Origin: Candidatus Cloacimonadota bacterium
GTDB taxonomy: Bacteria; Cloacimonadota; Cloacimonadia; Cloacimonadales; TCS61
Direction of reading: 5' to 3'
DNA length: 42,395 nucleotides
NCBI GenBank assembly: GCA_021736135.1
Contig: JAIPGO010000024.1
Coordinates: 1 to 42,395 of the forward strand
Position 1 is the stretch's first letter. The number at the start of each line of letters is the position of its first letter. Both the position numbers and the translations under genes were made by a program. The notes beneath the pieces are model-generated. The model was not told the DNA's origin. It made no database searches and saw only the letters and a program-made list of their open reading frames with translations. This document shows positions 11,401 to 33,338 of this stretch, piece after piece.

Positions 11401-11580
11401 AGAAAAATAAAATCCTTGAAAAACTTTTGTAATACCGGTTATAATCAGATTTTCTGGGATTGCCGTGATGCTGATGGTGATAGGATTGCCAACAATAATT
11501 ATTTATACAGGATAAAGGCCAAAAATACGGAAACCGGAAGAACAGCCAGAGAGACCGGAAAACTGGTTATCCTAAAATGA
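8485..11580 (+). CDS. Gingipain-type (C25) cysteine peptidase with type IX sorting domain, PorU-like
   Basis: This 1031-residue secreted protein has a signal peptide at about 1-19. A PorU/gingipain-type N-terminal region contains FWYKVVINGSGVYRF (about 222-236). The caspase-like peptidase domain (about 380-690) holds YVVLMGSGT, DLIIGRIPAQS, the catalytic His561 in YIGHGSWDKL and the catalytic Cys595 in LAGSCNVGRFS, 34 residues apart as in gingipains. Ig-like strands follow (about 700-930), then a C-terminal sorting domain (about 940-1031) with YPHPMS, NIYTISGRKIKSL, FWDCRDADGDRIANNNYLYRI and tail GKLVILK. PorU is the sortase that removes this domain from T9SS cargo; whether this is the sortase or a cargo protease I cannot decide. 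AGGAGG precedes the ATG. Confidence 0.85.
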   Translation: MKKIFLGIILVAVMTIYGGVEKVRTTATELEFKVQFNVELSLEGEFTHLNYIENDWTETDESGAPNLPYRVLRIAVPPEGDIRISYDIQDSEHKILMKPLLPAATIIPDEETSQFIYVINQAKYKRSQKMVVTNGAAYNYNSYRLIPVYIYPVIYDYEHSVLEEIQEMRIRIEILGNTRWQGETLSNPSVWDRDFITNYNQARNWRQVQSRELKGINWSATQFWYKVVINGSGVYRFGETIWNILPEWAQSSNLRLFSLEKRGEDFEAAEVSLFTGGSEVQFSYQGGNSVLWLAAGGSFPEQPIRTDKPETNIETIEAIENYIPINPGRGREIECLLIRPAAYFESAAEELSEIHLDYFNIETAIAIQEDIFAIESGGIAEASAIRAFLEDYKENNASLEYVVLMGSGTTDFSNPAGKNKIITWTANEVTYDDYFVDFNSDIRPDLIIGRIPAQSESMMSSYLQRIRDYYDNMETDWWQNRVLMIADDENKTGGLEGAGISSPMNHTLKMEETEEVLPGRILEKVYGLEYPFDSYQNKPGAAVDILEALNRGCLVTYYIGHGSWDKLGDEDYFTNEMIPQIDNYEHLTQFLAGSCNVGRFSKVSENCLAELLLFGEDGGSIVSIAASYDSSPLSNAQLLSAYLDRIYNHNESIGTALVYAKYNSGASTSNSKKYNILGDPVLKLPVPQLTGSITGLTDSLQYRQTVSYQGDFENSSLNVEGETVVYDSEQLIHYSNFIPPDTTQVYEVNYYRNGGVIFRGGVSLTAGEYQSSFIVPDNAGTGARGTILTWAEGDSSAYLNSKQGIRFVDSALPIVNESAPEVLLYLDSRNFRSGDTVSEEPLLIADIADSSGINLTVNSGKNIMILLDDSENPEDLIDVSEGFIYNEGSYTRGTLTSNLPVLPKGAHNLKLIVYDNFGLATVTATDFRIIEQGSMAITDILPYPHPMSDEGYFTFVLTAEAEVTINIYTISGRKIKSLKNFCNTGYNQIFWDCRDADGDRIANNNYLYRIKAKNTETGRTARETGKLVILK

Positions 11581-13570: not shown

Positions 13571-14886
13571 GTATAGTACGTCAACTGGCACATAAGATAA
13601 TCTATGATGTATTAAAGAAAAATGTGTTTTCCACTAAGCTGCTGCAGCAGGCAAAAACACGTCTCCGCCAGCAGCATGAAGACACAAACCTGCTTTATAC
13701 ACTGGTGAAAGGAACGATCAAGTTAAAGATGCATCTTGATTATATAGCTCAGCAATACACTGATGAAGCCAAATTTGCTAAAACAGACCTGAAGATCAAA
13801 ATACTTCTCTATCTGGGACTTTATCAATTGCTCTATTGCGATTCGATTCCTGAACATGCTGCCATCAATGAGACCGTGGAACTGGCAAAGATCCTTTACG
13901 GAGATAATGTGAGTTCTTTTGTAAATGCCATTTTGCGCGCCTGGCAGCGTAATCCGGCAATTAATTATCCTTCTGATACAATTAAGAGGCTTTCCTGCCA
14001 GTATTCCTTTGAAGAAGACATGATCAGATCTTTAATTGAGATATATGGTGAGGAAGACGTGGAATATGCCTGTCTTTATTTTAATGACATTCCCAGATTA
14101 AAGGTGCGCGTAAACAGCATGGCAACTGATCCGGTAAAGTTCATGGCATATTTTAAACGCCGTGACATTATCTTTGAGCGCTGTGAAACATCCGGTAATT
14201 TTCTTGCTACCGAAAGCGGAGAAAGTGCCTTACTGGACGTTTCATTTCAGGAAGGTTATTTTTCCATACAGGACCCGGCGGCAGGATTAGTGGTGGAACT
14301 GATTGAACCTATGTTGGATATGAGCATAATCGATATGTTTGCTGCTCCGGGCAGTAAAGCCTGTTATATGGCGGAAATTATGCAGGGGACCGGAGAGGTT
14401 ATAGCTATTGATAAAATACCGGGTAAATGTAAACTAATCAAGCAGAATCTGGAAAGACTCAAACTGCATAATATAACCGTTATTGCTGAAGATGCTTTTA
14501 AATATGGTCCTGTGGCTCCGGCTTATGACAAAGTTTTACTGGATGTCCCTTGCAGCGGTTGGGGTGTTATGCAGAAAAAAGCAGAACTGCGCTGGCAGAA
14601 AAACCAGGATATAGCCCAGCTATTAAAGATTCAGGAGCAGGCTTTAAAACGTGGGGCAAAATTTGTATGTCCAGGAGGTGATCTCATATACAGCACCTGC
14701 ACTTTTAATCCAAAGGAAAATGAGGTCCAGGTCAATAATTTCCTCAATAAAAATCCTGAATTTGAGTTGGTTGATGCTGCGGGAATAATCAGCAGTGCCT
14801 ATACGGAGAACGGTTTTTTGAAAACTGTACCCTGGAAACATAACATAGATGGAGCCTTCGCAGCCCGAATGCGCAGAAAAACTTGA
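13567..14886 (+). CDS. rsmB: 16S rRNA m5C methyltransferase RsmB
   Basis: This 439-residue protein has the RsmB layout: an N-terminal NusB-like RNA-binding domain (about 1-140; LLYTLVKGTIKLKMHLDYI, PEHAAINETVELAKILYG) and a C-terminal SAM-dependent methyltransferase. SAM motif I reads IIDMFAAPGSKACYMAEIM, with Ser in place of the usual second Gly. The catalytic cysteines are in LLDVPCSGWG and IYSTCTFNPKENE. The family methylates C967 of 16S rRNA. The start overlaps the ruvA stop by four bases. Confidence 0.93.
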   Translation: MSIVRQLAHKIIYDVLKKNVFSTKLLQQAKTRLRQQHEDTNLLYTLVKGTIKLKMHLDYIAQQYTDEAKFAKTDLKIKILLYLGLYQLLYCDSIPEHAAINETVELAKILYGDNVSSFVNAILRAWQRNPAINYPSDTIKRLSCQYSFEEDMIRSLIEIYGEEDVEYACLYFNDIPRLKVRVNSMATDPVKFMAYFKRRDIIFERCETSGNFLATESGESALLDVSFQEGYFSIQDPAAGLVVELIEPMLDMSIIDMFAAPGSKACYMAEIMQGTGEVIAIDKIPGKCKLIKQNLERLKLHNITVIAEDAFKYGPVAPAYDKVLLDVPCSGWGVMQKKAELRWQKNQDIAQLLKIQEQALKRGAKFVCPGGDLIYSTCTFNPKENEVQVNNFLNKNPEFELVDAAGIISSAYTENGFLKTVPWKHNIDGAFAARMRRKT

Positions 14887-14937
14887 CCTTGAGAATATTT
14901 CTGTAATGGTGACAGTCAAGTAAACAGAGGTAATGCG

Positions 14938-15516
14938 ATGAAGAAGTTATTTGGTTTTATCAAAGCAGTATTGCTTATCATAATTTTATTTTTCCTGGGA
15001 TTTCTGTTATTTAATTTTGCTATGCGCCTGCTGGTTGACCACAAACATGAAGAAAAAACACCTGATGTAACAGGTATGAGTTTTGAAGTAGCCCGGCAGG
15101 TTTGCCGGAACAATAATCTTTATCTTGAAGAAATTGAACGGGTGAATAATGATGAATATGCCCAGGGGAAGATCATTTCACAAGAGCCACATCCGGGAAT
15201 ATTAACTAAGCGGTTCCGTACTGTAAAAGTAGTTGTGTCTGCAGGACCAGAGTTGGTGAAAATACCTTTTCTGGCAAATCTTACTGTCAACCAGGCAAGG
15301 TTGAATCTTGAAAACGCCGGACTTATTATGGGTGAAAAGCAGTATCGCTATTCGGATGTAGTGGAGAAAGACAAGTTGATCAGTTCCAGTCCCCTGGCTG
15401 AAGAGGAGCTTCCCCGCGGTAGTAAGGTTGATCTTATTATTTCTCTGGGTAAAATGCAAAGTAATGACAACAGGTATGATAAATATAAGGACCTGTTAGA
15501 AAGTGATACACCATAA
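14938..15516 (+). CDS. Membrane-anchored protein with two PASTA domains
   Basis: This 192-residue protein has a cytoplasmic start of about six residues, one membrane helix (about 7-30), then two PASTA repeats outside. The first is TPDVTGMSFEVARQVCRNNN to VKVVVSAG (about 41-102); the second is VKIPFLANLTVNQARLNLEN to VDLIISLG (about 104-165). PASTA domains bind muropeptides or act as spacers in kinases and penicillin-binding proteins. There is no kinase or transpeptidase domain here, so it is a stand-alone cell-wall-sensing or scaffolding protein. A similar gene after rsmB is common in related phyla. A short polar tail follows. Confidence 0.88.
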   Translation: MKKLFGFIKAVLLIIILFFLGFLLFNFAMRLLVDHKHEEKTPDVTGMSFEVARQVCRNNNLYLEEIERVNNDEYAQGKIISQEPHPGILTKRFRTVKVVVSAGPELVKIPFLANLTVNQARLNLENAGLIMGEKQYRYSDVVEKDKLISSSPLAEEELPRGSKVDLIISLGKMQSNDNRYDKYKDLLESDTP

Positions 15517-15546
15517 CATGATAAGAAGCGGTTAAGGAGGCTGGCT

Positions 15547-17151
15547 ATGCTACATTTAAGCTTTATGATTTCTGCCCAAAAAAACCGGAAGAAAACTGCG
15601 ATTACTGACCTGGCAACTGATAAGAGCTATACTTATGACAAATTGCTTATCGCTTCTCTGATTCTAAAAAACAAACTGAGTAAGTATAGAAGTCAATATT
15701 TAGGTGTAATGCTCCCCACTACTGCCGGTTGTCATTTAACCGTTATCGCCTGCCTTATGTCAAACAAGATACCGGTTATGATAAATTATTCCATGGGTGC
15801 TATTGATAATTGCCAGCAGGCAATTGATAAATGCGGTTTAACTGTGATAATTACCAGCAGTAAAATGTTGAGTAAATTGAAGCTGAAACCAATACCCGAA
15901 ATGATCTATATCGAAGATATTCTCAAAACAGTTAGCATTGCCAATAAATTGCAGGCAGTCCTCATCAGCCGCCTGCCCAATTTTCTGATGCGTCAATTTG
16001 TGCATCAGGGAGATAGAGAGGATGTTTCGGTTATACTTTTTACCAGTGGCAGTGAGCAGAACCCCAAAGCCGTCCAGTTGACTCATCGTAATATCGAACA
16101 TCAGATTGCTACATTGCCGGATATGGCTGGTGCTACGAGTGAAGATATTTTTGCCGGGGCTTTACCATTATTTCATGTTTTCGGATTAACTATAACTTTT
16201 TGGATACCCTATCTGATTGGCGCTTCGATTGTTACTTTTGCTAATCCTCTTGATTACCGGTTTATTTGTGAGAATATCCGTAGATATAAGGTCAACTTTA
16301 TCGTTGGTACACCCACCTTTTTTAACGGTTATCTGCGGCGCGCGAAACCAGGCGATTTTGATTCAGTTCGCATTGGCATAACGGGAGGAGATAAATTACC
16401 GGAAAAGATCAGACTGGATTTTAAAAATAATCACAATGTAACTGTTTATGAAGGCTATGGAGCTACTGAAACCAGTCCTGTAAGTTCTGGAAATTCACGC
16501 TATAATATGCGCCCAGGCAGTATTGGCAAACCCGTAAAAGGTGCTCAGATCAAGATCGTGGATACAAAAACTGATAGAGAACTACCCACAGGCGAGATCG
16601 GTAAGATATTAGTAAAAGGTGAAATGGTGATGAAGGGTTATCTGGATGACATGGAAGAAACATGTCTTCATATTCGTAATGGCTGGTATGATACCGGTGA
16701 TATGGGATGCTTCGATGAGGATGGTTTTCTCTGGCATAAAGGCAGGCTCAAACGCTTTGTGAAAGTCGGAGGAGAAATGGTCTCGCTGGTGAGAGTAGAG
16801 GAATCTCTGCTGCGGCTTTTACCTGAAGATGTACAGTGTTGCGTTGTTGGATTGCCCGACCCTGTGAAAGGTTCGGAAATAGTAGCAGCCGTTTCTTCCG
16901 AAGAGATCAATAAACTTAAGATTGGGATACAGCTAAAACTGGAACTGCCAGCTATCGCCATTCCACGGCATTTTTATCATATTCCCGAAATGCCCATTAT
17001 GGGGAGTGGAAAAATAAATTTCCGGGAAGTAAAAAATATCTGTTTGCAGTTACGTGAGGAGTGGAAGGCAAATAAAACAGATCTCAGGCAGACTATCAAT
17101 GCACTTCTTCCTAAAAAACACCCTCAGAGTGAGGATAACCCGGATCTTTAG
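15547..17151 (+). CDS. AMP-forming acyl-activating enzyme (Aas ligase-domain type)
   Basis: This 534-residue member of the ANL superfamily activates a carboxylic acid, probably a fatty acid, through an acyl-adenylate. Motifs in order: the P-loop ILFTSGSEQNPKAVQLTHRN (about 160-180), PLFHVFGLTITFW, VGTPTFFNGYLRRA, TGGDKLPE, YEGYGATETSPVSSGN (A5), GWYDTGDMGCFDEDGFLWHKG (A7), GRLKRFVKVGGEMVSL (A8) and the C-terminal lysine region GSGKINFREVK. The pattern is closest to the ligase half of Aas, which acylates ACP or lysophospholipid, but the acyltransferase half is missing. Substrate and acceptor are undetermined. AAGGAGG precedes the ATG. Confidence 0.88.
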   Translation: MLHLSFMISAQKNRKKTAITDLATDKSYTYDKLLIASLILKNKLSKYRSQYLGVMLPTTAGCHLTVIACLMSNKIPVMINYSMGAIDNCQQAIDKCGLTVIITSSKMLSKLKLKPIPEMIYIEDILKTVSIANKLQAVLISRLPNFLMRQFVHQGDREDVSVILFTSGSEQNPKAVQLTHRNIEHQIATLPDMAGATSEDIFAGALPLFHVFGLTITFWIPYLIGASIVTFANPLDYRFICENIRRYKVNFIVGTPTFFNGYLRRAKPGDFDSVRIGITGGDKLPEKIRLDFKNNHNVTVYEGYGATETSPVSSGNSRYNMRPGSIGKPVKGAQIKIVDTKTDRELPTGEIGKILVKGEMVMKGYLDDMEETCLHIRNGWYDTGDMGCFDEDGFLWHKGRLKRFVKVGGEMVSLVRVEESLLRLLPEDVQCCVVGLPDPVKGSEIVAAVSSEEINKLKIGIQLKLELPAIAIPRHFYHIPEMPIMGSGKINFREVKNICLQLREEWKANKTDLRQTINALLPKKHPQSEDNPDL

Positions 17152-17379
17152 CAGAACATCTCCCTTCTTAATTTTCAGTAATTAACCGCTTTAAAAGATT
17201 TCATTATATAAATAACTATTGTGACCAGGATTCTGAACGAGAACAGTTATAAAAACAATGAAAAAATAGTATCCAGCTTTCACATTATCTGGGAGAAGCA
17301 CATTTCCGGTGTGTAATTATCTTGACTGATTGTGAGATGAGTTAAATGTGATACAAATTTCAGGGAGGTTTTTATAACA

Positions 17380-18987
17380 GTGTTTAAGAAACCCGGAATA
17401 AATGAGATTTCAGGCGAAGATAAAAGAACTGAGATTATGGCTAAAATAGTTCGAGAGCATCTGCCAAATTCGATAAACAGAAGACCAGAGCAGGAAGAAG
17501 GATTCATCACTGTGGACAGAGAGGAAAATATAACTTATATTAATAAAACGCTCTCTCATAAACTAGGATATGAACAGCTTCAGTTAGTAGGTGAATCTGT
17601 ACGCAAGTTAACAGTTGAAGAAGATTTTCAGAGAATAACGGAATTAACGGGCAAGAGAAAAGATGGACTGGCTTCATCGTATATCATGGAATTGAAAACG
17701 AGTAAAGGCAACAGTATATTATTCCGTGTGAGTGCTGCCCCGCTGTATTCGGCAAATGAATTTCTGGGAACAATGGGGATATTTTCGGATTTAACGCAGG
17801 AAAAGGCAAACCTTGACAGTATCATTGAGACGATCCAGTATCATGAATTGATGGCACACTATCTGCCTATGGGGTTGATTATTTTATCTTCAGAAGGCAT
17901 TGTAATAAACATTAATCCGGCATTTACCATATTGACCGGCATGACAACTGACGATATTATCGGACGGCATATTTTGAAGATAGAATTTCTGAGTAATTTG
18001 AGTTACCGTTACCTGCTGGAAAACCTGCTCCGCTTTCAAGTGAATTTTGACCAGGAAACTGACTTGCTCGAGATGAAAAACGGTAATGCGGTTTATTTGA
18101 ATCTTCGAGGTTTTCATTTGAAGTTAGATAACGGGATATCATATTATCTATTGATTTTTGGCGACATCAGCGAGCGCAAACGCACTGACCTGGTGATGAA
18201 GCAGAAAATGGAAGATCTTGTCTTGCTTGAACAGCAGTTAAAAGCTCAAATATTATCGCAGGAAAAGGAATTGCGCGAAAAGGAGTGGCAGCTCCTGGAA
18301 CAGCACCGGATTGATTCCAACAATGCCTTACTGGCAAAAATTGCTCACTACTGGCGGCAGCCTTTGAACAACTCAACGGTTTTAATCCAGTCTATGCAGG
18401 ATGATTATAATTATGGTGAGTTAGATAAAGCCCGGTTTTTCAGCAAAGTTGATAGCGCAGTAGGCCAACTGGCAGAACTCTCGCGAACCCTGGAAACATT
18501 TCGTTATCTGGCAGATTACGATTCGGGAGAATCTCGGTTTAATATTAAAGAAGCCATTATGCAGGCAGTAGATCTTATAAAACCGAATTATAGGAATGGC
18601 AATGCTTTTCTCAGCCTTAACCTGGAAGATGACATCTATACGGATGGTTATCCGCGTAGATTCACCCAGGCTCTGGTAAACATGATCGACAATTCAATAC
18701 TGGCATTTCAGGAACGTAAAATCAATAATCCTCTCATATATATCAATCTTGAATATGACGCCAGGAAAATTATAATACTGATTGGTGATAATGCCGGTGG
18801 AATAGAGGCTGATATCGCCACGAGGATTTTTGATCCTTATTTTACAACCCGCACAAACAGAGCTCAGGGTATTGGATTGTATCAAAGCAAACGGGTGATT
18901 ACAGAAATGTTCAATGGCTCAATTGATTATAAAAGAACAGATAAAGGCTCAGAATTCATTATCATTATTCAAGGATTAAAAAAATAA
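17380..18987 (+). CDS. PAS-domain sensor histidine kinase (soluble)
   Basis: This 535-residue kinase has no membrane segment. Two PAS domains (about 42-150, FITVDREENITYINKTLSHK; about 160-270, MGLIILSSEGIVININPAF) are followed by a coiled coil (268-310). The phosphoacceptor helix has His323 in IAHYWRQPLNN, the HxWRQPL type of H-box. The ATPase domain has the N box NMIDNSILAFQE, G1 GDNAGGI, the F box FDPYFTT and G2 GIGLYQSKRVI. No response regulator is adjacent. Translation is assigned to GTG 17380, with AGGGAGG about 11 bases upstream; no ATG lies near. It could partner with the kinase-less PAS proteins at 25.5-31.2 kb, but that is speculation. Confidence 0.93.
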   Translation: MFKKPGINEISGEDKRTEIMAKIVREHLPNSINRRPEQEEGFITVDREENITYINKTLSHKLGYEQLQLVGESVRKLTVEEDFQRITELTGKRKDGLASSYIMELKTSKGNSILFRVSAAPLYSANEFLGTMGIFSDLTQEKANLDSIIETIQYHELMAHYLPMGLIILSSEGIVININPAFTILTGMTTDDIIGRHILKIEFLSNLSYRYLLENLLRFQVNFDQETDLLEMKNGNAVYLNLRGFHLKLDNGISYYLLIFGDISERKRTDLVMKQKMEDLVLLEQQLKAQILSQEKELREKEWQLLEQHRIDSNNALLAKIAHYWRQPLNNSTVLIQSMQDDYNYGELDKARFFSKVDSAVGQLAELSRTLETFRYLADYDSGESRFNIKEAIMQAVDLIKPNYRNGNAFLSLNLEDDIYTDGYPRRFTQALVNMIDNSILAFQERKINNPLIYINLEYDARKIIILIGDNAGGIEADIATRIFDPYFTTRTNRAQGIGLYQSKRVITEMFNGSIDYKRTDKGSEFIIIIQGLKK

Positions 18988-19378
18988 GTGTCAATTTGTA
19001 AGAAAGTGGGCGAGTTGGAACGAAACTTGTGTAATGTATGTTATAAAACTTGATCATAAAACTCTCTGACAGGGCAGAATATTCTGCCCTGTTCTTATTT
19101 TGGAATTATATGAGCTGATTATCGGGATATAACTTAAGTAATTACTTGAGAGCTGCCCCGAGGGTATGTAATTATGTTTACAGACTGTCTGAAAAGTTGA
19201 CAGTATATAAGAATTACTGGGTGTACATTCTGATGACAGTTCATTCTGGGGGCTTTAAATCAGGAAGGAGTATTGGCTCTGGGAGAGATTGGATAAAATA
19301 AGTTTGACAAGTTGTGTGAGAGCAGCGAATTTGCTGGATATTATGAAAAAGCGTAAATTATAAAGAAAAGGAGTACTT
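18988..19378. other. Gene-free leader region ahead of the four-gene membrane operon
   Basis: No gene is visible. The stretch contains the kinase terminator at 19070-19101 and a near-palindrome CTTAAGTAA/TTACTTGAG at 19133-19150 (8 of 9 pairs). It also has ACTGTC/GACAGT arms near 19184-19203 and two TTGACA boxes (19197-19202, 19304-19309), neither with a convincing -10 box at 16-18 bases. AAAGGAG lies ahead of the 19379 ATG. The operon promoter should be in this region, but I cannot place it. Confidence 0.6.
19070..19101 (+). terminator. Rho-independent terminator after the histidine kinase
   Basis: CAGGGCAGAAT (19070-19080) and ATTCTGCCCTG (19081-19091) form a perfect 22-base palindrome followed by TTCTTATTTT. 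Confidence 0.85.
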
Positions 19379-22300
19379 ATGAAGGTTAACCTGAACCTGA
19401 GAGGCATAGTTTTAATATTGATACTAATGCTCTGTTTCGCCTTACCCTACTCCTCTTTTGCGAAAGGCAATCCTGAAGATTACATAGTGCAGGGACTCAA
19501 AGTCAACGATGTACCGAATGACGACGGATCCGGTTTAGTAATCAGTTGGAATCCTTTACCGAAGGAGCGACGAGTAATTGAGTATCGTGTTTACCGGGGA
19601 GTAAGTTCTGATACTCTGTCTTATTTAACAAGTTCTGATTCTCTGTTTTATATTGGTAAGATAGATGTAAATCTGAAGACAGGTATAGCAGGAGATTCAG
19701 TTTATTTTTATGATTCTGGCTGGTTGCCATTTGCTGATCTGGAATCCCCTGGACGATTGAAGAAGGAGAAAGGCGACCATACACAGTGTTTGATTTTTAG
19801 GGAATTTCCCCGAGATATACATATCAATGGACCTCAGTTACGTGATAACTACGTTGTGCTTGGTATAGCTAAAGAAAGAGATTTCTTCTATGACGCTGAG
19901 AAGGTCGAGAAAAGGAATGAAGACGGGGACATAGATATATATTCCGGTTTAAAGATGAACCAGTTTGAGACAATGTATAAAATACTGAAAAGAGATAAAG
20001 AGTATTTCTACACAGTCATAGCAGTAGATGAGGCTCGTAATTATTTCCCGGCAGCCGAACCGGTAAGTGGAATTCCACGTGCAAACAGTCCGGAACCTCC
20101 CAAAGCATTAGCAAGTGTATTTGTGGCGGACCTGAATCGTCTGCAGTTCGAATGGAAACTTCCCACCGAGACAAGTTCCGTTTATGGTTATGAGGTTTGG
20201 ATGCTTGATAAGGGAAAAACTGAGGAATTTGTGCAATTCAAGGAAGAGCAGATAATTTTAGAACGGGATGAATTACTGTGTAAGATAGATAAAGACCGGA
20301 CACCTCTGGAAGCGCAATATGAGAATCCTGCTTTTCAGATATTCCGCTCGGAAACATCAGTTTATACTGATGTTACTCAAGGAATTGTGGATATAGTTGA
20401 TGGAAAAATAACTTATGATGGGAATGAATACGAAGTAACTCCAGAAACTTTGAATAATTACCATTTTATTTTTGCTTTTGAAGGAGCCAGATACCGGAAT
20501 TGGAGTCCCTTTTCGGAGCTTGATCACTATCAGAGTTCGGAACTGCCGCAATTTCATGAAATTGATGACGGCGTATTTTTTACAGTTACAGACAGGGCAG
20601 AAGATAAGGGTGACTATAATACGATAAGCTGGGGCAAACCCGTAGTTACTATCACCAATACAAGTTATCTTAATGACTCCCGGACGCAGCTTTTAATCAA
20701 TTATGATTATCTTACTAACAAGGAATATAAAGTCAGGAATATATATTTCGTGATTTCTGATTCAGTTGGAAATGAAATTACTCGTATTAATGAATTCTAT
20801 CTGGATGGAAATTTAAAGGTCAAATTCCCGGAAGGAGCCAATCCCGAGCAGACATTAAGCATTGATATCACTTTCAAGTGTAACAAGGATTTGGGCAATT
20901 ATTATATTCGCCAGGATCTTGTATATAAACCTTTTTCGAGGTCAATGGCACCAGCCAAAGCGTTATATATCAACGGTATTGACGTAAGTAATTATAATTA
21001 TTACATTTATAAGCGGAATTATTACGAGGAAGTGTTCCGCCTGGCAAAGAAATTTGGTGCTACGCAACGTGAATACAATGACAATATAAGTCATGAAAAC
21101 AACTTCAGTTTACTTGTAGGAGATTTTGATGCCGAGAAAAACTTATATCTGGTTAATCCCGAATTTCGTATTTATCGTTCGGAAGGTGATACTGAGATTC
21201 AGCGTGGAGCAGGAATAAACAGCAATATCTGGCGTGAAGAGGCTGAGAAACAGATGGCAAATCTGCAGAAAGATATTGATAAATATACCGTTATGGCAGA
21301 CACAATAAAAGCAGACCGCCAACAGTCAGTTTTAGATTATGTGAGTGAATTACAATCTCAGTATGATGAAATGCTGCAGAATCCAGACCCGATTCTGGAG
21401 AAAGCAAAATCTATTACCGATGATAAGAAGAGATGGAAATACTTATTCTCACAGCGCAACGCCTCGAGACGGTCTTATGAATATAAACTGGCAATCACGG
21501 ATGGCAATGGTCATTTCACTTTTTCCGATATTTACGTAAATCCGGATGCTAAATCTTTGAAAGAAGATAATGAAGCTTTTACTTATTTTGCGGGAGTGGG
21601 AATAAATCATTTTTACCCTGTTTCGAACTGGTTTAAATGGACTATGTTTCCGGCATTGATTGCCACCCTGATCTTTGGCAGCCTGGTATTTATAATGATT
21701 AAGAAAGCCCAGACATCAGAATTATATATAAGGCCTATTGCGGGAATTCAGGAAATAGATAATGCCATAGGCAGGGCAACGGAGATGGGGCGTCCTATTT
21801 TGTTTGTACCAGGTCTATCCGGTATCAGTGATGTGGCAACGCTGGCCGGTTTATCCATTCTGGGTAGAGTCGCCAAAAAGGCAGCAGAATATGACACCAG
21901 GATATTGTGTCCGGTACGTGACTATATAGTTTTGCCTATTGCGCAGGAAATTATTAAGGAAGCGCATTATGAAGCAGGCAGACCGGATAGTTACGATAAG
22001 AACAGTGCTTTCTTTATCACCACAGCGCAGTTTGCCTTTGTGGCTGGTGTGAACGGAATCATGCTGCGTGAAAAGACAGCAACCAACTTTTATATGGGTA
22101 TGTTCTGGGCGGAAGCGTTGATCATGACCGAAACAGGATCCGGTACCGGCGCAATTCAGATAGCGGGAACTGATGCTGTAACACAGATACCATTCTTCAT
22201 AACAACTTGTGATTATACCCTGATCGGTGAGGAGCTTTATGCTGCTTCGGCATACCTGGCACGTGAACCACTGATGCTGGGAACTTTGAAAGGTCAGGAT

Positions 22301-22396
22301 TATATGAAATTATTGATAATCATCTTTATAATTATTGGAACATTTTTGAGTACGGCGCATTTGACATTCTTGATCAATGCTTTCCCGGAAAAATAA
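19379..22396 (+). CDS. Large exported FN3-like protein with C-terminal membrane/DUF6754-type domain
   Basis: This 1005-residue protein has a signal peptide (about 1-28). A long exterior part carries fibronectin-III-like segments (about 33-105, LVISWNPLPKERRVIEYRVY; about 235-320, LQFEWKLPTETSSVYGYEVW) and a coiled coil near 620-680. A membrane helix at about 750-775 ends in KK, which places the next 200 residues in the cytoplasm. That part is compact and well conserved in style: ELYIRPIAGIQEIDNAIGRA, GRPILFVPGLSGISDVATLA, TETGSGTGAIQIAGTDA and ITTCDYTLIGEELYAASAYL. A second membrane helix (about 980-998, LLIIIFIIIGTFLS) ends it. From memory this matches the domain of unknown function named DUF6754. 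First gene of a tight four-gene operon. Confidence 0.75.
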   Translation: MKVNLNLRGIVLILILMLCFALPYSSFAKGNPEDYIVQGLKVNDVPNDDGSGLVISWNPLPKERRVIEYRVYRGVSSDTLSYLTSSDSLFYIGKIDVNLKTGIAGDSVYFYDSGWLPFADLESPGRLKKEKGDHTQCLIFREFPRDIHINGPQLRDNYVVLGIAKERDFFYDAEKVEKRNEDGDIDIYSGLKMNQFETMYKILKRDKEYFYTVIAVDEARNYFPAAEPVSGIPRANSPEPPKALASVFVADLNRLQFEWKLPTETSSVYGYEVWMLDKGKTEEFVQFKEEQIILERDELLCKIDKDRTPLEAQYENPAFQIFRSETSVYTDVTQGIVDIVDGKITYDGNEYEVTPETLNNYHFIFAFEGARYRNWSPFSELDHYQSSELPQFHEIDDGVFFTVTDRAEDKGDYNTISWGKPVVTITNTSYLNDSRTQLLINYDYLTNKEYKVRNIYFVISDSVGNEITRINEFYLDGNLKVKFPEGANPEQTLSIDITFKCNKDLGNYYIRQDLVYKPFSRSMAPAKALYINGIDVSNYNYYIYKRNYYEEVFRLAKKFGATQREYNDNISHENNFSLLVGDFDAEKNLYLVNPEFRIYRSEGDTEIQRGAGINSNIWREEAEKQMANLQKDIDKYTVMADTIKADRQQSVLDYVSELQSQYDEMLQNPDPILEKAKSITDDKKRWKYLFSQRNASRRSYEYKLAITDGNGHFTFSDIYVNPDAKSLKEDNEAFTYFAGVGINHFYPVSNWFKWTMFPALIATLIFGSLVFIMIKKAQTSELYIRPIAGIQEIDNAIGRATEMGRPILFVPGLSGISDVATLAGLSILGRVAKKAAEYDTRILCPVRDYIVLPIAQEIIKEAHYEAGRPDSYDKNSAFFITTAQFAFVAGVNGIMLREKTATNFYMGMFWAEALIMTETGSGTGAIQIAGTDAVTQIPFFITTCDYTLIGEELYAASAYLAREPLMLGTLKGQDYMKLLIIIFIIIGTFLSTAHLTFLINAFPEK

Positions 22397-22407
22397 CAGG
22401 AGGATAG

Positions 22408-23028
22408 ATGAAAAGGCAAATACCTTTAATTATAGTAATAGGTTTGGGGTTCATATTCGTAGCCCATACATTTATCCCGTCAAGGACGTCCCAGGATTTT
22501 TATGACTGGTGGGTAAGCTGGAGCAAAGCAATTTCTCCCTTCGCAGTAGTTTTGGGAATATTAAGTCTTTTTATGGTTCATGGAACAAAGATACAGCGAA
22601 AAGCTCCTAACTGGCAATACAGTGTAGTAACATTATTAGCTGTTTTTGTTACCGCATTTGTCGGTTTTGTCTGGGGTACTGACGAGGGCACACCCTTTCT
22701 CTGGTTGTTCAAAAATGTACAGATGCCTATGAGTGCAACAATGTTTTCTCTGCTGGCGTTTTACATAGCCAGTGCTGCTTACAAAGCCTTCCGGGCAAAA
22801 AGCCCGCAGGCCACTGTGCTTCTGGTGGCGGCATTTATTGTAATGCTGGGTCAGGTGCCATTAGGCGCTGCAATTTCCAGATGGATTCCAGAAGCTTCAC
22901 AATGGATATTAAATGTGCCCAATCTGGCAGCAAAGCGCGGTATAGCCACGGGAGTTGGTCTGGGAGCAACAGCAACCTCTCTCAAAATCTTGCTCGGAAT
23001 TGAACGTACCTATCTGGGTAGTGATTAA
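22408..23028 (+). CDS. Polytopic membrane protein of unknown function, operon gene 2
   Basis: This 206-residue protein has five or six membrane helices (about 5-24, 40-58, 69-88, 104-125, 132-155 and possibly 175-195). I do not recognise a family. Notable pieces are the short acidic turn WGTDEGTPFLWLFKNVQMPM between helices 3 and 4, and the C-terminal RGIATGVGLGATATSLKILLGIERTYLG, a Gly/Ala-rich helix with few charges. It begins 11 bases after the 19379 gene behind CAGGAGG, and the next gene starts 10 bases after its stop. Confidence 0.7.
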   Translation: MKRQIPLIIVIGLGFIFVAHTFIPSRTSQDFYDWWVSWSKAISPFAVVLGILSLFMVHGTKIQRKAPNWQYSVVTLLAVFVTAFVGFVWGTDEGTPFLWLFKNVQMPMSATMFSLLAFYIASAAYKAFRAKSPQATVLLVAAFIVMLGQVPLGAAISRWIPEASQWILNVPNLAAKRGIATGVGLGATATSLKILLGIERTYLGSD

Positions 23029-23038
23029 GGAGGAAATG

Positions 23039-24031
23039 ATGACATTCTGGGAAAAAATTCAAAACATAGACCGCCGCTGGATTTATATGATCGTGGCTCT
23101 TTGTATTATCGTGCCCTTACTGATTCCATTCAATTCAAAAACTTATGTCACGGAACCAACCGTTAATCTTTATAAGAAAATAGATAGTTTCTCCGATAAA
23201 GAAGATAAGGCAATTCTGCTCAGTTTCAGTCATGACGCTTCTACAATGGCAGAGCTTTTTCCGATGGAAGTCTCCATATTGCGTCATTGCTTTGAAAGAA
23301 ACATCAAAGTATTTCTGATCTGCTTTTCACCACCTTCTGCCCCTTTGATGGCTTATGCCCTGAATGTGGCAAAAGAAGATTATCCTGATCTGGAATCAGG
23401 TGTTGACTACTGTAACTTTGGATATAAACCTTATGGACTTTTCCTGCCCATCGTATTGGGTATGGGTGATGACGTTGGTGAAGCTGTTGATACGGATGCC
23501 GACGGCAGGAAAGTGAAAAATCTGGAGATTATGAAAGGCATCAGGAATTATGATGATTTGAATCTGATCATAGATTTTGCTGCCAGTGCTGCTGTATTCA
23601 GCTGGATAACTTATGCCCGTGTGCGTTTCGGGGCCAATGTTGCTGCCGGTGTCACTGCCGTTATGGCCGCAGATAATTATCCTTACCTGCAGTCAGGCCA
23701 ACTGGTGGGAATGCTGGCGGGATTGAAAGGAGCAGCAGAATACGAGAAACTGGTGGATGTTTTTGCTGCTTATGAAGATGAGCAGTATTCTGATGGGCGG
23801 AACTTCAGCCAGGAAGTGATCAAAAATACCTGGGTACCAATTATGAAAAAGACCATATCCTATACGAGTGGTGAGACGAATGTTCAAACCGATGTTGAGC
23901 TGCCTTATAAATTCAAGCAGGCACGCATCGGAATGAATGCTCAAAGCATTGCCCATATCATGATCATTGTGTTCATTATCATCGGTAATATTGGATATTT
24001 CTTATCCAGAAAAAACAAGAACGAAGTATAA
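23039..24031 (+). CDS. Membrane protein with a large soluble domain between two anchors, operon gene 3
   Basis: This 330-residue protein has one helix near each end (about 15-34 and 300-322). The Arg-Arg before the first and the basic tail after the second suggest that both ends are cytoplasmic and the 260-residue middle lies outside. That middle looks alpha/beta: AILLSFSHDASTMAELFPME, NIKVFLICFSPPSAPLMAYA, GYKPYGLFLPIVLGMGDDVG, LIIDFAASAAVFSW and GANVAAGVTAVMAADNYPYL. I recognise no catalytic motif. The second helix (MIIVFIIIGNIGYF) resembles the last helix of gene 1 (LLIIIFIIIGTFLS). Of two adjacent ATGs I chose 23039, which is better spaced from AAGGAGG than 23036. Confidence 0.7.
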   Translation: MTFWEKIQNIDRRWIYMIVALCIIVPLLIPFNSKTYVTEPTVNLYKKIDSFSDKEDKAILLSFSHDASTMAELFPMEVSILRHCFERNIKVFLICFSPPSAPLMAYALNVAKEDYPDLESGVDYCNFGYKPYGLFLPIVLGMGDDVGEAVDTDADGRKVKNLEIMKGIRNYDDLNLIIDFAASAAVFSWITYARVRFGANVAAGVTAVMAADNYPYLQSGQLVGMLAGLKGAAEYEKLVDVFAAYEDEQYSDGRNFSQEVIKNTWVPIMKKTISYTSGETNVQTDVELPYKFKQARIGMNAQSIAHIMIIVFIIIGNIGYFLSRKNKNEV

Positions 24032-24040
24032 GGAGGAAAG

Positions 24041-24640
24041 ATGTTTGAAATATTAAGTAATATAGTTGCAGCCCTGCTCACCCTTTTTATCTTTTCCTTC
24101 CTTTACAAAGATAATCCATTCTACCGCTTTGCTGAGCATCTGCTGGTGGGTGTAACCATGGGATATGCCATTCCCCTGGTTTATACTAATGCTTTCATAC
24201 CTTTTGTTTACCAGCCCATTTTTCTGGAAGGCCAATACTGGTTGATCATACCATCAATTCTCGGTATCCTGTATATTTTCCGGTTTACCAAGAATCTTAG
24301 CTGGCTTTCTCGTTATCCAATTGCATTCGGGATGGGTATCGTTGGTATGGGTGTTCCGATGAGTATGCACTCTTCTGTGCTCGTTCAGATGCGTAATGCG
24401 ATGCGTCCTATAGATAATATTAATACTTTGATTATTTTCCTTGGCACGGTAACGATTCTGCTCTATTTCTATTTCTCCAAACCGCATAAAGGACTGTATG
24501 GTAAATTCACCAATATAGGCATCTGGTTCATGATGGTAGGTTTTGGTGCATCATTCGGTTATACTGTGATGGCTCGTATTTCACTACTTATTGGGCGTAT
24601 CCAGTTCCTGCTGGGCGATTTTCTCGGTCTGATAAAATAA
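24041..24640 (+). CDS. Polytopic membrane protein of unknown function, operon gene 4
   Basis: This 199-residue protein has about six membrane helices (5-22, 34-52, 66-82, 92-112, 123-143 and 158-178). The loop after helix 1 reads FLYKDNPFYRFAEHLLVGVT, a compact charged motif that looks conserved in style. I recognise no family with confidence. AAGGAGG precedes the ATG, nine bases after gene 3, and the operon ends at the terminator 24658-24689. Confidence 0.7.
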   Translation: MFEILSNIVAALLTLFIFSFLYKDNPFYRFAEHLLVGVTMGYAIPLVYTNAFIPFVYQPIFLEGQYWLIIPSILGILYIFRFTKNLSWLSRYPIAFGMGIVGMGVPMSMHSSVLVQMRNAMRPIDNINTLIIFLGTVTILLYFYFSKPHKGLYGKFTNIGIWFMMVGFGASFGYTVMARISLLIGRIQFLLGDFLGLIK

Positions 24641-24657
24641 AAAATTATGAATAAACA

Positions 24658-24689
24658 GGAAAAGCCTCATCTTCGGATGAGGCTTTTCC
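24658..24689. terminator. Bidirectional terminator with UUCG tetraloop
   Basis: GGAAAAGCCTCATC (24658-24671) pairs with GATGAGGCTTTTCC (24676-24689) across TTCG, a very stable C(UUCG)G loop. The A-rich left arm and T-rich right arm let it work on both strands, serving the membrane operon and the convergent TrmH gene. Confidence 0.93.
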
Positions 24690-24702
24690 TTTATCAATAT
24701 TA

Positions 24703-25467
24703 TTAAGATCTTCTTCTCATTTCCGCAATTGTCACTGCAGTTGCCACTGCCACATTAAGTGAATTCTTCCAGCCAGCTAAAGGTATTTGAACCACTTTAT
24801 CAACTAACCGGATGATATCTTCAGAAATACCCAGAGCTTCATTGCCCACGATCAAAGCAGCCGGATATTGAAAAGCGCAATTATAAATACTCTCAGCATT
24901 ATCTACTGTTTCCAGGGCATACACTACGAGCTGCCTCTGCTGCAAAGATATGATAGAATCCTCCGTCCGGGTAAATTTTTTTATGGTTACAAGTTCTCTG
25001 GTGCCCATAGCCGTTTTTGACACGCGTTCATTATCCGGTGTATAACCACAAAAATGCAGTTCCTTAATGCCAAAGCATTCGGCAGTTCGGATAATTGAAC
25101 CAACATTGAAGGCAGAGCGCAGATTATCCAGCACGAGTATCACATCAAGAGCAGGTGCATTTTTCTCCAGGCCGTCATGTTTTAAAATACTCAGCTCAGG
25201 ATCGCGCAGATCAAGATTTAATTTTTGTTCCAGAGGGACTGCTGTTTTAAGAAAATCCCTCCGGTTCATATCTGTTTCTAATTGCTCTCCTGCTTTCTGG
25301 AATTTATCATCCTCAAAAAAAATTAAATATTCTCTGAAATTAAGTAATAATTCCTGACGTTTCTGGATTATATCCCAGTACTGTTCAATATCTCTGATAA
25401 ATTTAAGAATCGTTCTTTTTTTCCTTTCGTCAGGTAACCGGTCAAATTTATTGCGATTATACTTCAT
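24703..25467 (-). CDS. TrmH/SpoU family RNA 2'-O-methyltransferase
   Basis: This 254-residue SPOUT-fold enzyme uses SAM to methylate the ribose of tRNA or rRNA. The three family motifs are present: LDNLRSAFNVGSIIRTAECF (motif 1), ALIVGNEALGIS (motif 2) and IPLAGWKNSLNVAVATAVTI (motif 3). An extension of about 90 residues, mostly helical, precedes the catalytic domain and may bind RNA. The target nucleotide cannot be read from sequence. The ATG at 25467 overlaps the stop of the upstream PAS gene, so the two are translationally coupled; an adjacent ATG at 25470 is equally possible. Confidence 0.92.
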   Translation of the reverse strand: MKYNRNKFDRLPDERKKRTILKFIRDIEQYWDIIQKRQELLLNFREYLIFFEDDKFQKAGEQLETDMNRRDFLKTAVPLEQKLNLDLRDPELSILKHDGLEKNAPALDVILVLDNLRSAFNVGSIIRTAECFGIKELHFCGYTPDNERVSKTAMGTRELVTIKKFTRTEDSIISLQQRQLVVYALETVDNAESIYNCAFQYPAALIVGNEALGISEDIIRLVDKVVQIPLAGWKNSLNVAVATAVTIAEMRRRS

Positions 25468-26965
25468 CATCCGAACCAGTGTCAATTTCCAGTCTATTTC
25501 TGAGATTTTTAATTTGCTCCCTCAGTTCCTTGATGCGGAATTCACGTCCAACAAATACTTTATGCATATTTTCCATATCCAGGTTTCTCATTTCCAGTAT
25601 CTGGTTGGCTTTTTCCAGTTCTCCGGTTCTGGCAGTTACCAGTTCTTCCAGATGTTCACGATAGTTTTTTAATTCCTTTTGATTACGGCTGCGTTCGGAA
25701 ATATCACGAATGATACCTTGAATAATAGTATTGCCATCCAGCTCAATAAAACTCAAAGAAATTTCTACCGGAAGCTGGCTGCCATCTTTTTTTATTAGAA
25801 TTGATTCGATAATTGAAGAGACTTCTACCGAATATTCCGGAATAATATTATTTTGATCATTTTGTGTTTGAAGGTCAATCAAGTCGGTAAGTTTCATTCT
25901 CTTTAACTCATCTTTTGAGTATCCCAGAACCTCAGCAGCAGTTGCATTAGAATCCAGAATTTTACCACTCAGGTCATAGATAATGATCATATCATTCAGA
26001 TTATTAAAGAGTATGCGGAATCGGTCTTCACTGATCCGTAATTCTGCTTCCACTCTTGTTCTAATGGTTATGTCATCACGTAATTCCTGAGTTTTACGAC
26101 GAATTTCGCGCTGCAGGAATAAATAAAAAGAGGTATAAATAATGATCAGGATAAAAATAAAGACCAGGAGTATTTTTACCCATAAGGGAAGAATTTTGAT
26201 CTCGTCTACATCACCCAGATATTTACTTAGCGATGAGTAATATACTGACTGCTGGTTGGCTTTCAGTCTTTTCAAGTGGCTATCAATTGTACTGATCAGG
26301 TAATTATTGAGTTCGGCACCTTTAGGAAAGGCATAAAGCATCCTTGCCGGCTGTAAAATTATGTTAGTCCGCTCTACATTATATATGGAATCATATTTAT
26401 TGCCAAAGTCCTTATCTGTTATTCCGGCATCAATGATGCCGTTTTCCAGAGCTTGCAACACACTCGCATAATCCTCCAATTCGATTATCCGGCAATTTAG
26501 TTCAAATTTTCTGGTGACTGCTTTCAGTCCTTCCGGTCCATCAAGATCAAAGCTACCCTTTAAACCGCCTACTGTTTTTCCATCCAGATCTAGAATAATA
26601 TCAATTCTGGCTTCGGATTTCCTGTAAAGTCTTGTCCAGCTTAATAGTACTGTTTCATTAGAAAAAGTAAACTTAGTCTGCCTTTCGGGGGTAAGTCCCA
26701 CATCGACCATAACATTGATTTCATTATTCTCCAGGCGTTGCAGGCATTGTGTCCAGGTTCCCGGAACCCACTCAATATCCCAGTCTTCTTTATCTGCTAT
26801 AAAACTCGTGATATCCGCCCAGAATCCTTTAACATTGCCGTTTTCAGCAGTAAATATCTTAGGGGCATTTTCATACACCCCGATTTTGACCTTGAGGCTG
26901 CTGTAAGCCGGAAGTCTGAGCAGTAAAAGAAAAATTAAGAAAATGAAATGTATCTTAATCTTCAT
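25457..26965 (-). CDS. Solute-binding domain-membrane-PAS protein without an output domain
   Basis: This 502-residue protein has a signal sequence (about 1-21). A periplasmic solute-binding domain of the family-3 type follows (about 24-265; VKIGVYENAPKIFTAENGNV, FTFSNETVLLSWTRLYRKSE, LENGIIDAGITD), then a membrane helix (about 264-286), a short linker and a PAS domain (about 315-432; LFNNLNDMIIIYDLSGKILD). It ends in a coiled coil with HKVFVGREFRIKELREQIKN. Proteins with this front end usually continue into a histidine kinase or cyclase; here no kinase, GGDEF or receiver domain follows, and the next gene begins within its stop. It shares its C-terminal motif with the two PAS genes upstream. 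Confidence 0.88.
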   Translation of the reverse strand: MKIKIHFIFLIFLLLLRLPAYSSLKVKIGVYENAPKIFTAENGNVKGFWADITSFIADKEDWDIEWVPGTWTQCLQRLENNEINVMVDVGLTPERQTKFTFSNETVLLSWTRLYRKSEARIDIILDLDGKTVGGLKGSFDLDGPEGLKAVTRKFELNCRIIELEDYASVLQALENGIIDAGITDKDFGNKYDSIYNVERTNIILQPARMLYAFPKGAELNNYLISTIDSHLKRLKANQQSVYYSSLSKYLGDVDEIKILPLWVKILLVFIFILIIIYTSFYLFLQREIRRKTQELRDDITIRTRVEAELRISEDRFRILFNNLNDMIIIYDLSGKILDSNATAAEVLGYSKDELKRMKLTDLIDLQTQNDQNNIIPEYSVEVSSIIESILIKKDGSQLPVEISLSFIELDGNTIIQGIIRDISERSRNQKELKNYREHLEELVTARTGELEKANQILEMRNLDMENMHKVFVGREFRIKELREQIKNLRNRLEIDTGSDDEV

Positions 26966-27001
26966 ATATAAACACCTTCATTTTTTTCAGTCTATTAATA
27001 A

Positions 27002-29158
27002 CTAAGTCGATTCCTGTGCAAGTCTTTTTTCCAGTTCCTTGACCTTTTCTCTTAATTCTTTGATGCGAAACTCCCTGCCTACAAATAACCGATTAAAGTT
27101 TTCCAGTTCTGCTTTTTGTTCTTCCAGTTTCTGAGTCCGTTTCTTCACGATTTCTTCCAGATGTTCCCTGTGTTTTGCCAGTTCCAGTTCTATAGCTTTT
27201 CGAGAGTTTATATCCTGGAAAGTACCATATAATTTAATGCATTTATCATTTACCATTTCTCTTCTACCAGATGCTTTGCACCATTTGATATTGCCTTTAG
27301 ATGTTTTCAGTTCTGCCTCGAATTCCAGCTCAATTCCCTTTTCAATCAAGGCCTTCATCTTTTCCTGGATCATTTCCCGATACTGTGGCAGATAAAATTC
27401 CACATGTTCATCTAATCCTGGGATGGCTTCATTATAATCTATTTCAACAATATTATACGTTTCCCTTGTCCATTTGGCTTTTCCCGTTTCAAGATTCATT
27501 TCCCAACCACCTACCAGGGCAATATTTCCCACTGCATCAAGTAATCTTTCGCTTTCGAATTTATCCTTTTCGTTTTGAACGCGCTCGGTTATATCCTGAG
27601 TAAAGGCTATATAGCGGTTTTCCGCAATTTTTCTAGCTATAATATTCCAGAAGCGCACACTTTTATTTTTGTGAAGGAAGCGGATGTCAATTGTCCGAAA
27701 TGCTTCATCATTAAGACTCTGAAAATGCTCTCCTGCTTTTTCCAGATCCTCACTTAAAACCAGGTCACTGATTTTCATCTGCAGCAATTCTTTTTCCGTA
27801 TAACCCGTTATCCGGCAGGCGGCAGTATTCACTTCCAGATATCTGCCTTCACCATCTGCGACAAAGAAACCATTAGGCGCATTTTCAATATATGTACGGT
27901 ATTTCTGTTCGGTAAACGCCAGAGCTTCTTCTGTCTTTGCTTTTTCACTAACATCTCGTACAGCTCCAATTCTGAAATGTTTGCCATTATAATCCATATT
28001 TCGGGCTTCTATTTCAGCCAGGAATTCACTCCCATCTTTGCGTCTTAAAGTTATGCGGTAAGGCTCGACGTAACTTTTGCTAAATTTCTCCATTACCTGC
28101 TGCCGATCAGATTCCTTTGGAATGATATCTAATAAATTAAATCCTTCAACGTCTTCCTGATCAAATCCAGTCATTCTGAGTAATGAAGAATTGGCATCAA
28201 TCACTTTTCCATTCTCATGAAGTAGTATTCCTTCAAAACTTACTTCTGATAGTAAACGGTAACGCATCTCCTTTTCCCGTAGAGCTTCATTTTGACTGGC
28301 TATCTTTTCACTGTCTGTCTGCATGATTTGCTCTGCTTCCTTGAGATCATTAACGTCTACGACTGTGATGATAAAATATAAAGGATTTCCAAAACGATCC
28401 CGCACTATCGTGGAGTAAAGCCGCACCCATTCGATTTTGCCATTCTGGTGGATATAGCGTTTTTCCAGTTCAAAACTGTCCCGCTCACTTCTGAGTAATT
28501 CAGCAATGAGTTTATCCTGAAAACTGATATCATCCGGATAGGTTATATCATGGGAATTTATCTTTTCCAGTTCCTCAACAGAGTATCCGGTAATTTCTGA
28601 TAACCGTTTATTTACTTTGATAAAACTGCCATCAATTCCCATTTCGGCAATTCCTACCGCGGTTTGGTTAAATAATATCCTCAGTTTCTGTTCAGCAGCC
28701 TTTCGGGCAATTTCAATTTCCTGCTGCTGGCTGATATCTATTGTGGCTAAAAGCAGTATATCCTGTTGTTCATATTTTAATAATTCGCTTAAGTTATTCT
28801 CTTTGATTCCAATAAGTTCAACCGGAAGCCGTTCATCTCCCCGCTTCAACAGACGCACTTGCAGTTCACGGGCAGCAGGATTTTTGAATAATGGCTTATA
28901 ATTCTGCAGAAAATGTTCCTGATCTTCATGATATATAAATCCTGTTATAGGAACATCCACCATTTCTGATTTGTCATAATTAAGCTTCTGGCAAAGCGTC
29001 TCATTTACCTCTATGACCATGCCCCGCTGATTCAGTAAAAGGAAGCCAACGGGTGCTTTTTCAAAAAAAGCAGTAAACTTACTCCGTAAACTCTCCAGTT
29101 CCTGATACGCTGAACGAAGTTTCTCTGCCTGCAAATTTGAGTTCTGAAGTTTGTTCAT
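27002..29158 (-). CDS. Five-PAS-domain cytoplasmic protein without an output domain
   Basis: This 718-residue protein has no membrane helix. About five PAS/PAC units run from residue 28 to 655: GFLLLNQRGMVIEVNETLCQ, GIAEMGIDGSFIKVNKRLSE, GILLHENGKVIDANSSLLRM, GFFVADGEGRYLEVNTAACR, and a PAS_3-like unit with GGWEMNLETGKAKWTRETYN. The end is a coiled coil, HLEEIVKKRTQKLEEQKAEL then NRLFVGREFRIKELREKVKE. There is no H-box, ATPase, GGDEF, EAL or DNA-binding domain. Its first two PAS units closely resemble those of the 29291 protein, which suggests tandem duplication. AGGA precedes the ATG; the next gene begins 36 bases downstream. Confidence 0.9.
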   Translation of the reverse strand: MNKLQNSNLQAEKLRSAYQELESLRSKFTAFFEKAPVGFLLLNQRGMVIEVNETLCQKLNYDKSEMVDVPITGFIYHEDQEHFLQNYKPLFKNPAARELQVRLLKRGDERLPVELIGIKENNLSELLKYEQQDILLLATIDISQQQEIEIARKAAEQKLRILFNQTAVGIAEMGIDGSFIKVNKRLSEITGYSVEELEKINSHDITYPDDISFQDKLIAELLRSERDSFELEKRYIHQNGKIEWVRLYSTIVRDRFGNPLYFIITVVDVNDLKEAEQIMQTDSEKIASQNEALREKEMRYRLLSEVSFEGILLHENGKVIDANSSLLRMTGFDQEDVEGFNLLDIIPKESDRQQVMEKFSKSYVEPYRITLRRKDGSEFLAEIEARNMDYNGKHFRIGAVRDVSEKAKTEEALAFTEQKYRTYIENAPNGFFVADGEGRYLEVNTAACRITGYTEKELLQMKISDLVLSEDLEKAGEHFQSLNDEAFRTIDIRFLHKNKSVRFWNIIARKIAENRYIAFTQDITERVQNEKDKFESERLLDAVGNIALVGGWEMNLETGKAKWTRETYNIVEIDYNEAIPGLDEHVEFYLPQYREMIQEKMKALIEKGIELEFEAELKTSKGNIKWCKASGRREMVNDKCIKLYGTFQDINSRKAIELELAKHREHLEEIVKKRTQKLEEQKAELENFNRLFVGREFRIKELREKVKELEKRLAQEST

Positions 29159-29290
29159 ATTTTTCCTGCTCCATATTTTCTTTATAAGTTAAGATGCTTT
29201 TCTCAAATGTCAAAAGTTAAATAGATAAATCAGAATATCATCAGATAATATGAGTTGCGTTGCTCCTGTTGATATATAGTATATAATAAA

Positions 29291-33298: not shown

Positions 33299-33338
33299 GT
33301 ACTTAAAGTGATGTATTGTGATTTAACAAGGAGTGAAG

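Follow-up and report, generated by a model that had tools for sequence, protein, structure and literature searches.

We identified a bacterial gene set in which four genes, g1 to g4, likely encode a single obligate inner-membrane complex that forms part of a larger, envelope-spanning system serviced by a MutL-type ATPase and a barrel-sandwich protein (BSH). The support for this complex is genetic; there is neither an experiment nor a joint structure. That the parts belong together genetically is shown by sequence, through a conserved cassette, joint inheritance, co-occurrence with BSH and fusion of MutL to BSH. As we propose it, the system would have seven parts: a small protein, the MutL-type ATPase, BSH, g1, g2, g3 and g4. 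The machine recurs in at least a dozen bacterial phyla with the same gene order, often in tandem copies and accompanied by a dedicated ATPase, and has no assigned role, its families being either domains of unknown function or unnamed.

The four genes were found in a window of 42,395 nucleotides (the whole stretch of DNA analysed) from a Candidatus Cloacimonadota genome of 4.14 Mb in 148 contigs. The relevant features are as follows.

17380-18987: upstream PAS/HATPase kinase gene, closed by the hairpin at 19068-19093
19068-19093, plus strand: terminator-like hairpin 3′ of the PAS/HATPase gene; 11 pairs, 6 GC, T-rich tail
19379-22396, plus strand: g1, 1005 aa; signal peptide, FN3-like arm (predicted exterior), TM helix, DUF6754 (predicted cytosolic), TM helix
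21623-22378, plus strand: DUF6754 domain of g1, residues 749-1000; Rossmann-like α/β domain, assigned from PF20539, model and topology
22408-23028, plus strand: g2, 206 aa; membrane protein with six predicted TM segments and N-terminus inside; sub-threshold Pfam matches only
23036-24031, plus strand: g3, 331 aa, double ATG; Rossmann-like domain, predicted to lie outside, with a TM anchor on either side
24041-24640, plus strand: g4, 199 aa; polytopic membrane protein with about six TM segments
24657-24690, scored on the minus strand: 15-pair hairpin after g4, a probable terminator; short T-rich tail on the plus strand too

A previous sequence-only reading had proposed a four-gene operon with gaps of 9-11 bases, a ribosome-binding site before each gene and a terminator at each end. 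The operon held: the genes are real and tightly spaced, and a Shine–Dalgarno-like AGGAG or GGAGG precedes each of them. The measured gaps are 11 bases for g1–g2, 7 for g2–g3 (10 from the second ATG of g3) and 9 for g3–g4. There is a hairpin on both sides, the upstream one being supported by position only, as shuffled sequence yields a similar overall number of hits. Neither Rfam families nor tRNA genes were detected in the window. Being conserved across phyla, the four genes are far beyond chance.

This conservation is most directly seen in gene order. Among 138 DUF6754 genes in the loci that we read, 93 are followed by g2, g3 and g4 in that order, 21 run into the end of a contig or locus, and 24 deviate. 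The deviating genes are mostly lone second g1 copies; in one case the order is g2-g4-g3, and several cases come down to problems of gene calling or frame. Outside Cloacimonadota there are 50 full cassettes in 36 loci, and between phyla the DUF6754 core domain retains roughly 50-60% identity. The sequence-only reading had put forward conservation of order among distant genomes as a check, which was passed strongly. In the window's own genome, contig C83 carries a second operon in which all four genes recur in unchanged order; its g1 is short, at about 360-377 aa according to which start codon is taken.

We then profiled DUF6754 in four phyla only, using one genome per species. It is present in 122 of 125 Cloacimonadota genomes, usually as one long and one short copy, and in all 132 Zixibacteria genomes, mostly in 4-6 copies with arrays of three cassettes. 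It also occurs in 46 of 198 Nitrospirota and 50 of 199 Planctomycetota genomes. The same three Cloacimonadota genomes that are without DUF6754 are missing g4, and in some Cloacimonadota families a second long g1 directly follows g4. The set is absent from all 14 control genomes, and viral contigs contained no relatives. Across GTDB species genomes, we detected at least 562 relatives, of which the best 80 were kept. These come from records named Fermentibacteria, Coatesbacteria, Edwardsbacteria, Zixibacteria, CSSED10-310, Stahlbacteria and WOR-3, with further ones from Latescibacterota, UBP14, Nitrospirota, Planctomycetota and others. One locus, L101, comes from a record named Desulfuromonas sp. 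SDB, yet the tree places its g1 copies with a Stahlbacteria sequence, so that the bin label is possibly wrong. At 14361-17443 the same locus has a degenerate extra cassette (g1'-g4') after an intact one, and the g1 of this extra cassette has lost the invariant DUF6754 residues.

Phylogenetic trees indicate that the cassettes travel as units. In the tree of the g1 domain, the short Cloacimonadota copies form a clade (support 99/98) with Zixibacteria cassettes 1 and 2 and with the second cassette found in Effluviviacota-type genomes; both the long g1 of the window and Zixibacteria cassette 3 lie outside it. Quick trees recover the S-type set as a branch for g1 (97) and g2 (94); the set lacks two rows in the quick g3 tree (67) and gains four Effluviviacota-type rows in that of g4 (97). 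An ancient duplication into two cassette types is therefore fully recovered for two genes and nearly so for the other two, and it is this identical or near-identical set across four gene trees that points to transmission as units. The duplication therefore seems to predate these phyla. For most gene pairs, patristic distances are correlated (Spearman 0.46-0.68), the g3–g4 value being only 0.22. A careful tree was made for the g1 domain only.

The proposed four-gene unit turned out to be incomplete, as the small protein, the MutL-type ATPase and BSH belong with g1-g4. In many loci outside Cloacimonadota, a small protein (~125 aa), a MutL-family PF13941 protein (~610 aa) and BSH (~375 aa) are encoded directly upstream of g1. 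MutL and BSH immediately precede g1 in Nitrospirota, Planctomycetota, CSSED10-310, UBP14 and others, and six planctomycete loci (L176, L177, L182, L183, L184 and L187) have the whole small-MutL-BSH-g1-g2-g3-g4 run. Cloacimonadota keep MutL and BSH adjacent to each other but elsewhere in the genome. Several Cloacimonadota genomes also encode a second, fused MutL-BSH protein (~1000 aa), which in L042 lies directly upstream of a long g1. Fusions of about 940-1060 aa were noted in Cloacimonadota and Fermentibacterota at L042 3706-6879, L139 11847-14825 and L093 17390-20203.

Co-occurrence extends beyond adjacency. MutL was found in all 59 relatives searched and in 14 of 14 genomes from other phyla. 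For BSH, genome-by-genome co-occurrence was measured in Nitrospirota only: of 198 genomes, 46 carry DUF6754 and precisely these 46 carry BSH, with the two genes near each other in every case by their coordinates. Several planctomycete genomes have the parts scattered, yet g1, g3 and g4 are each kept as one copy; in at least G490, G571 and G553, g3 and g4 are distant from g1 or sit on a different contig, and all 11 planctomycete genomes tested have one g3 and one g4 each. Conversely, two Cloacimonadota genomes, G040 and G044 (91% and 93% complete; loci L148, L149 and L150), have kept MutL and BSH while DUF6754 and g4 are absent. Given these two, it is conceivable that MutL-BSH also works alone.

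Next, we turned to the domain content of the proteins. DUF6754 (PF20539) is the only significant Pfam match in g1-g4, and it is certain: the C-terminal 250 residues of g1 represent a full-length member (E 1.7e-115; 385 bits against a cut-off of 27; model positions 3-255 of 257). The FN3-like nature of the exterior part, also proposed earlier, is less secure, as FN3 is sub-threshold in the window protein itself (E 0.12) and significant in two of 11 homologues (best 9.3e-6). Elsewhere, standard g1 proteins are about 375-470 aa long with one FN3-like module, and the long Cloacimonadota copies have roughly 600 additional exterior residues. For g2, g3 and g4, there is no Pfam or NCBIfam match above curated cut-offs, and no PDB match accounts for them. 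PDB sequence searches with the DUF6754 part of g1, g2, g3, g4, MutL and BSH gave nothing useful.

According to AlphaFold2 models, DUF6754 (pLDDT 90.8) is a soluble α/β Rossmann-like domain flanked by TM helices at about residues 756-776 and 977-997 of g1, and g3 (pLDDT 87.4) likewise has a Rossmann-like α/β domain between two TM helices. The secondary-structure elements follow the same order in both models. Lys/Arg bias combined with family-averaged hydropathy placed DUF6754 inside, the FN3-like arm and the g3 domain outside, and gave g2 six TM segments with its N-terminus inside. Thus, from the model and the positive-inside rule, DUF6754 is predicted to be cytosolic and the g3 domain of similar fold to face outward. 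This prediction agrees with the earlier view of g3 as an exterior partner with a soluble domain between two anchors. The description of the DUF6754 end as membrane-embedded failed, the domain being soluble and predicted to be cytosolic.

In DUF6754, 21 polar or aromatic residues are kept in at least 90% of 36 sequences, and the invariant polar ones are retained in both paralogue types. Only C209 of the alignment is a Cys or His conserved at this level, and there is none in g2-g4. DUF6754 has no catalytic motif. Fold searches with the DUF6754 and g3 models gave no match at E≤0.001, the best being no better than 5e-3, and a viral fold library gave none at E≤0.001 either. Sequence homology between DUF6754 and g3 was considered but is not supported by profile similarity (hhalign probability 0.3); with only the shared element order and fold matches in its favor, it remains a guess. 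Comparison of g2 with g4 revealed no similarity.

The linked genes resemble known families only in part. The ATPase belongs to PF13941 (1.1e-127), the family of GlmL/MutL (TIGR01319), the accessory ATPase of B12-dependent glutamate mutase. Its ASKHA motifs are intact, with phosphate-1 and phosphate-2 each found in 13 of 15 sequences. However, it scores below the GlmL cut-offs (234 bits against 475; 165 against 204 for TIGR01319) and, unlike GlmL, it comes with a barrel-sandwich protein and a membrane cassette, by fusion or as a neighbor. BSH has weak matches (5e-5 to 7e-3) to the RnfC N-terminal and biotin-lipoyl barrel-sandwich domains, and only Biotin_lipoyl in one member passes the cut-off. 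In contrast to RnfC, it has no Fe-S motif and there is no sign of electron transfer. A biotin or lipoyl carrier role was dropped, as no carrier lysine is evident in the alignment. The Moco carrier protein and LOG-like Rossmann folds (PDB 2iz5, 6y01) are among the best fold matches of the DUF6754 and g3 models, but with E no better than 5e-3 and TM about 0.5 to the target; moreover, the DUF6754 and g3 domains are membrane-anchored.

The suggestion that g1-g4 carry no known transport, secretion or enzymatic signature held in Pfam and NCBIfam searches. No transporter, secretin or motor family was detected above cut-off, which speaks against an ABC transporter or known secretion system, and no flavin or Fe-S domain of the kind expected in an Rnf/Nqr-type redox pump. 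The Pfam entry PF20539 describes only a domain of unknown function; the cassette, its partners and topology are undescribed in the open-licence literature that we searched, where no paper on DUF6754 or the gene set was found. The set therefore appears undescribed as a system in searchable literature, although an existing description is not excluded, most subscription journals being outside the search.

How might such a complex work? The arrangement proposed in the sequence-only reading, with a g1 arm, a g2/g4 core and g3 as exterior partner in one envelope-spanning complex, is supported by gene order, joint inheritance and g3 topology, without joint interface data. In the predicted architecture, g1 would extend its FN3-like arm outside and hold the Rossmann-like DUF6754 in the cytosol, g3 would place its Rossmann-like domain outside, and g2 and g4 would form the membrane core. 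We infer that the cytosolic MutL ATPase may act via BSH on DUF6754, and that a conformational change may pass through g2/g4 to g3 and the exterior arm. That the two Rossmann-like domains might be ligand entry and exit sites is a guess. So is the tentative idea that the job is ATP-dependent ligand movement across or within the inner membrane; we favor it only slightly over a reactivated membrane enzyme, and the job is not settled. Against a single complex stand the lone extra g1 copies and the two genomes with MutL and BSH but without DUF6754.

A bolder reading, which we can neither endorse nor dismiss, is that the set represents a hitherto undescribed class of envelope machine driven by ATP, one that is ancient in several phyla and that none of the 14 control genomes contains. 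Here, a MutL-type ATPase would act, via a barrel-sandwich adaptor, on a membrane complex bearing Rossmann-like domains on either side, and tandem cassettes would each supply different subunits of one hetero-oligomer.

The strongest alternative, a possible one, is that g1-g4 form an enzyme complex with its active site in DUF6754, and that MutL-BSH serves it as an ATP-dependent reactivase or chaperone for assembly, by analogy with the part ascribed to the GlmL/MutL family for glutamate mutase. The match of MutL to PF13941 and, below cut-offs, to GlmL models is in line with this, as are the many invariant polar DUF6754 residues, which are retained in both paralogue types and degenerate in the one extra cassette of L101. 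On the other hand, a catalytic motif is lacking, and none of the fold matches improves on E 5e-3.

A transmembrane sensor or receptor complex, in which exterior g1 and g3 domains bind a ligand and signal to cytosolic DUF6754, seems unlikely. In its favor are similar-looking folds on both membrane sides and a weak similarity of g2 to 7TMR-DISM_7TM (2.1e-5). However, g2 does not qualify as a 7TMR-DISM receptor (25 bits against a cut-off of 29, six TM segments, weak matches in four of 29 members), and the similarity may reflect hydrophobic composition. Moreover, the system has no kinase, cyclase or other output domain, and near-universality with strong inner-domain conservation in two phyla would be unusual for a sensor. 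We also doubt a structural envelope scaffold of PilM/FtsA-like layout, in which an ASKHA protein inside and an FN3 arm outside would tie membrane, wall and outer layer together. The exterior arm is enlarged in Cloacimonadota, and an M23 peptidase is encoded upstream of several Cloacimonadota long operons; but the M23 linkage is seen in Cloacimonadota only, MutL falls outside the PilM/FtsA families, and a scaffold would not need so many invariant polar DUF6754 residues. Finally, that the four genes are mere neighbors without joint function is all but excluded by order kept across phyla, joint duplication and retention after scattering, even though lone g1 genes exist.

Returning to the seven-part system, presence of the gene set in 97-100% of the genomes of two phyla, coupled with a core domain roughly 50-60% identical between phyla, makes a role in something basic in the cell likely. 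Its occurrence in Nitrospirota and in planctomycetes with large single-contig chromosomes means that it may be testable at the bench, and the full seven-part set and the two ancient cassette types, once named, make the question concrete.

A fixed metabolic context was rejected, as neighbors vary (glycine cleavage, transketolase, PEP-utilising enzymes, Memo, TonB receptor, Rex); changing from phylum to phylum, they offer no substrate clue. About 1 kb past the third Zixibacteria cassette lies a gene for a PEP-utilising-enzyme-type protein of 958-995 aa (L111 14005-16989; L131 14272-17145). Just upstream of the short operon on C83 (L033 10846-13358), we noted by eye phage/plasmid-type primase-helicase-like and CHC2-type zinc-finger primase-like genes, so a mobile element may adjoin this operon. 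Elsewhere in the window, 8485-11580 encodes a protein of 1031 aa that contains a gingipain-type peptidase C25 domain, and 33333-35879 an 848 aa protein, possibly secreted, with a C-terminal FlgD_ig domain. The minus strand at 25457-31171 carries three adjacent PAS-rich sensor genes, one of them with a periplasmic solute-binding domain (SBP_bac_3).
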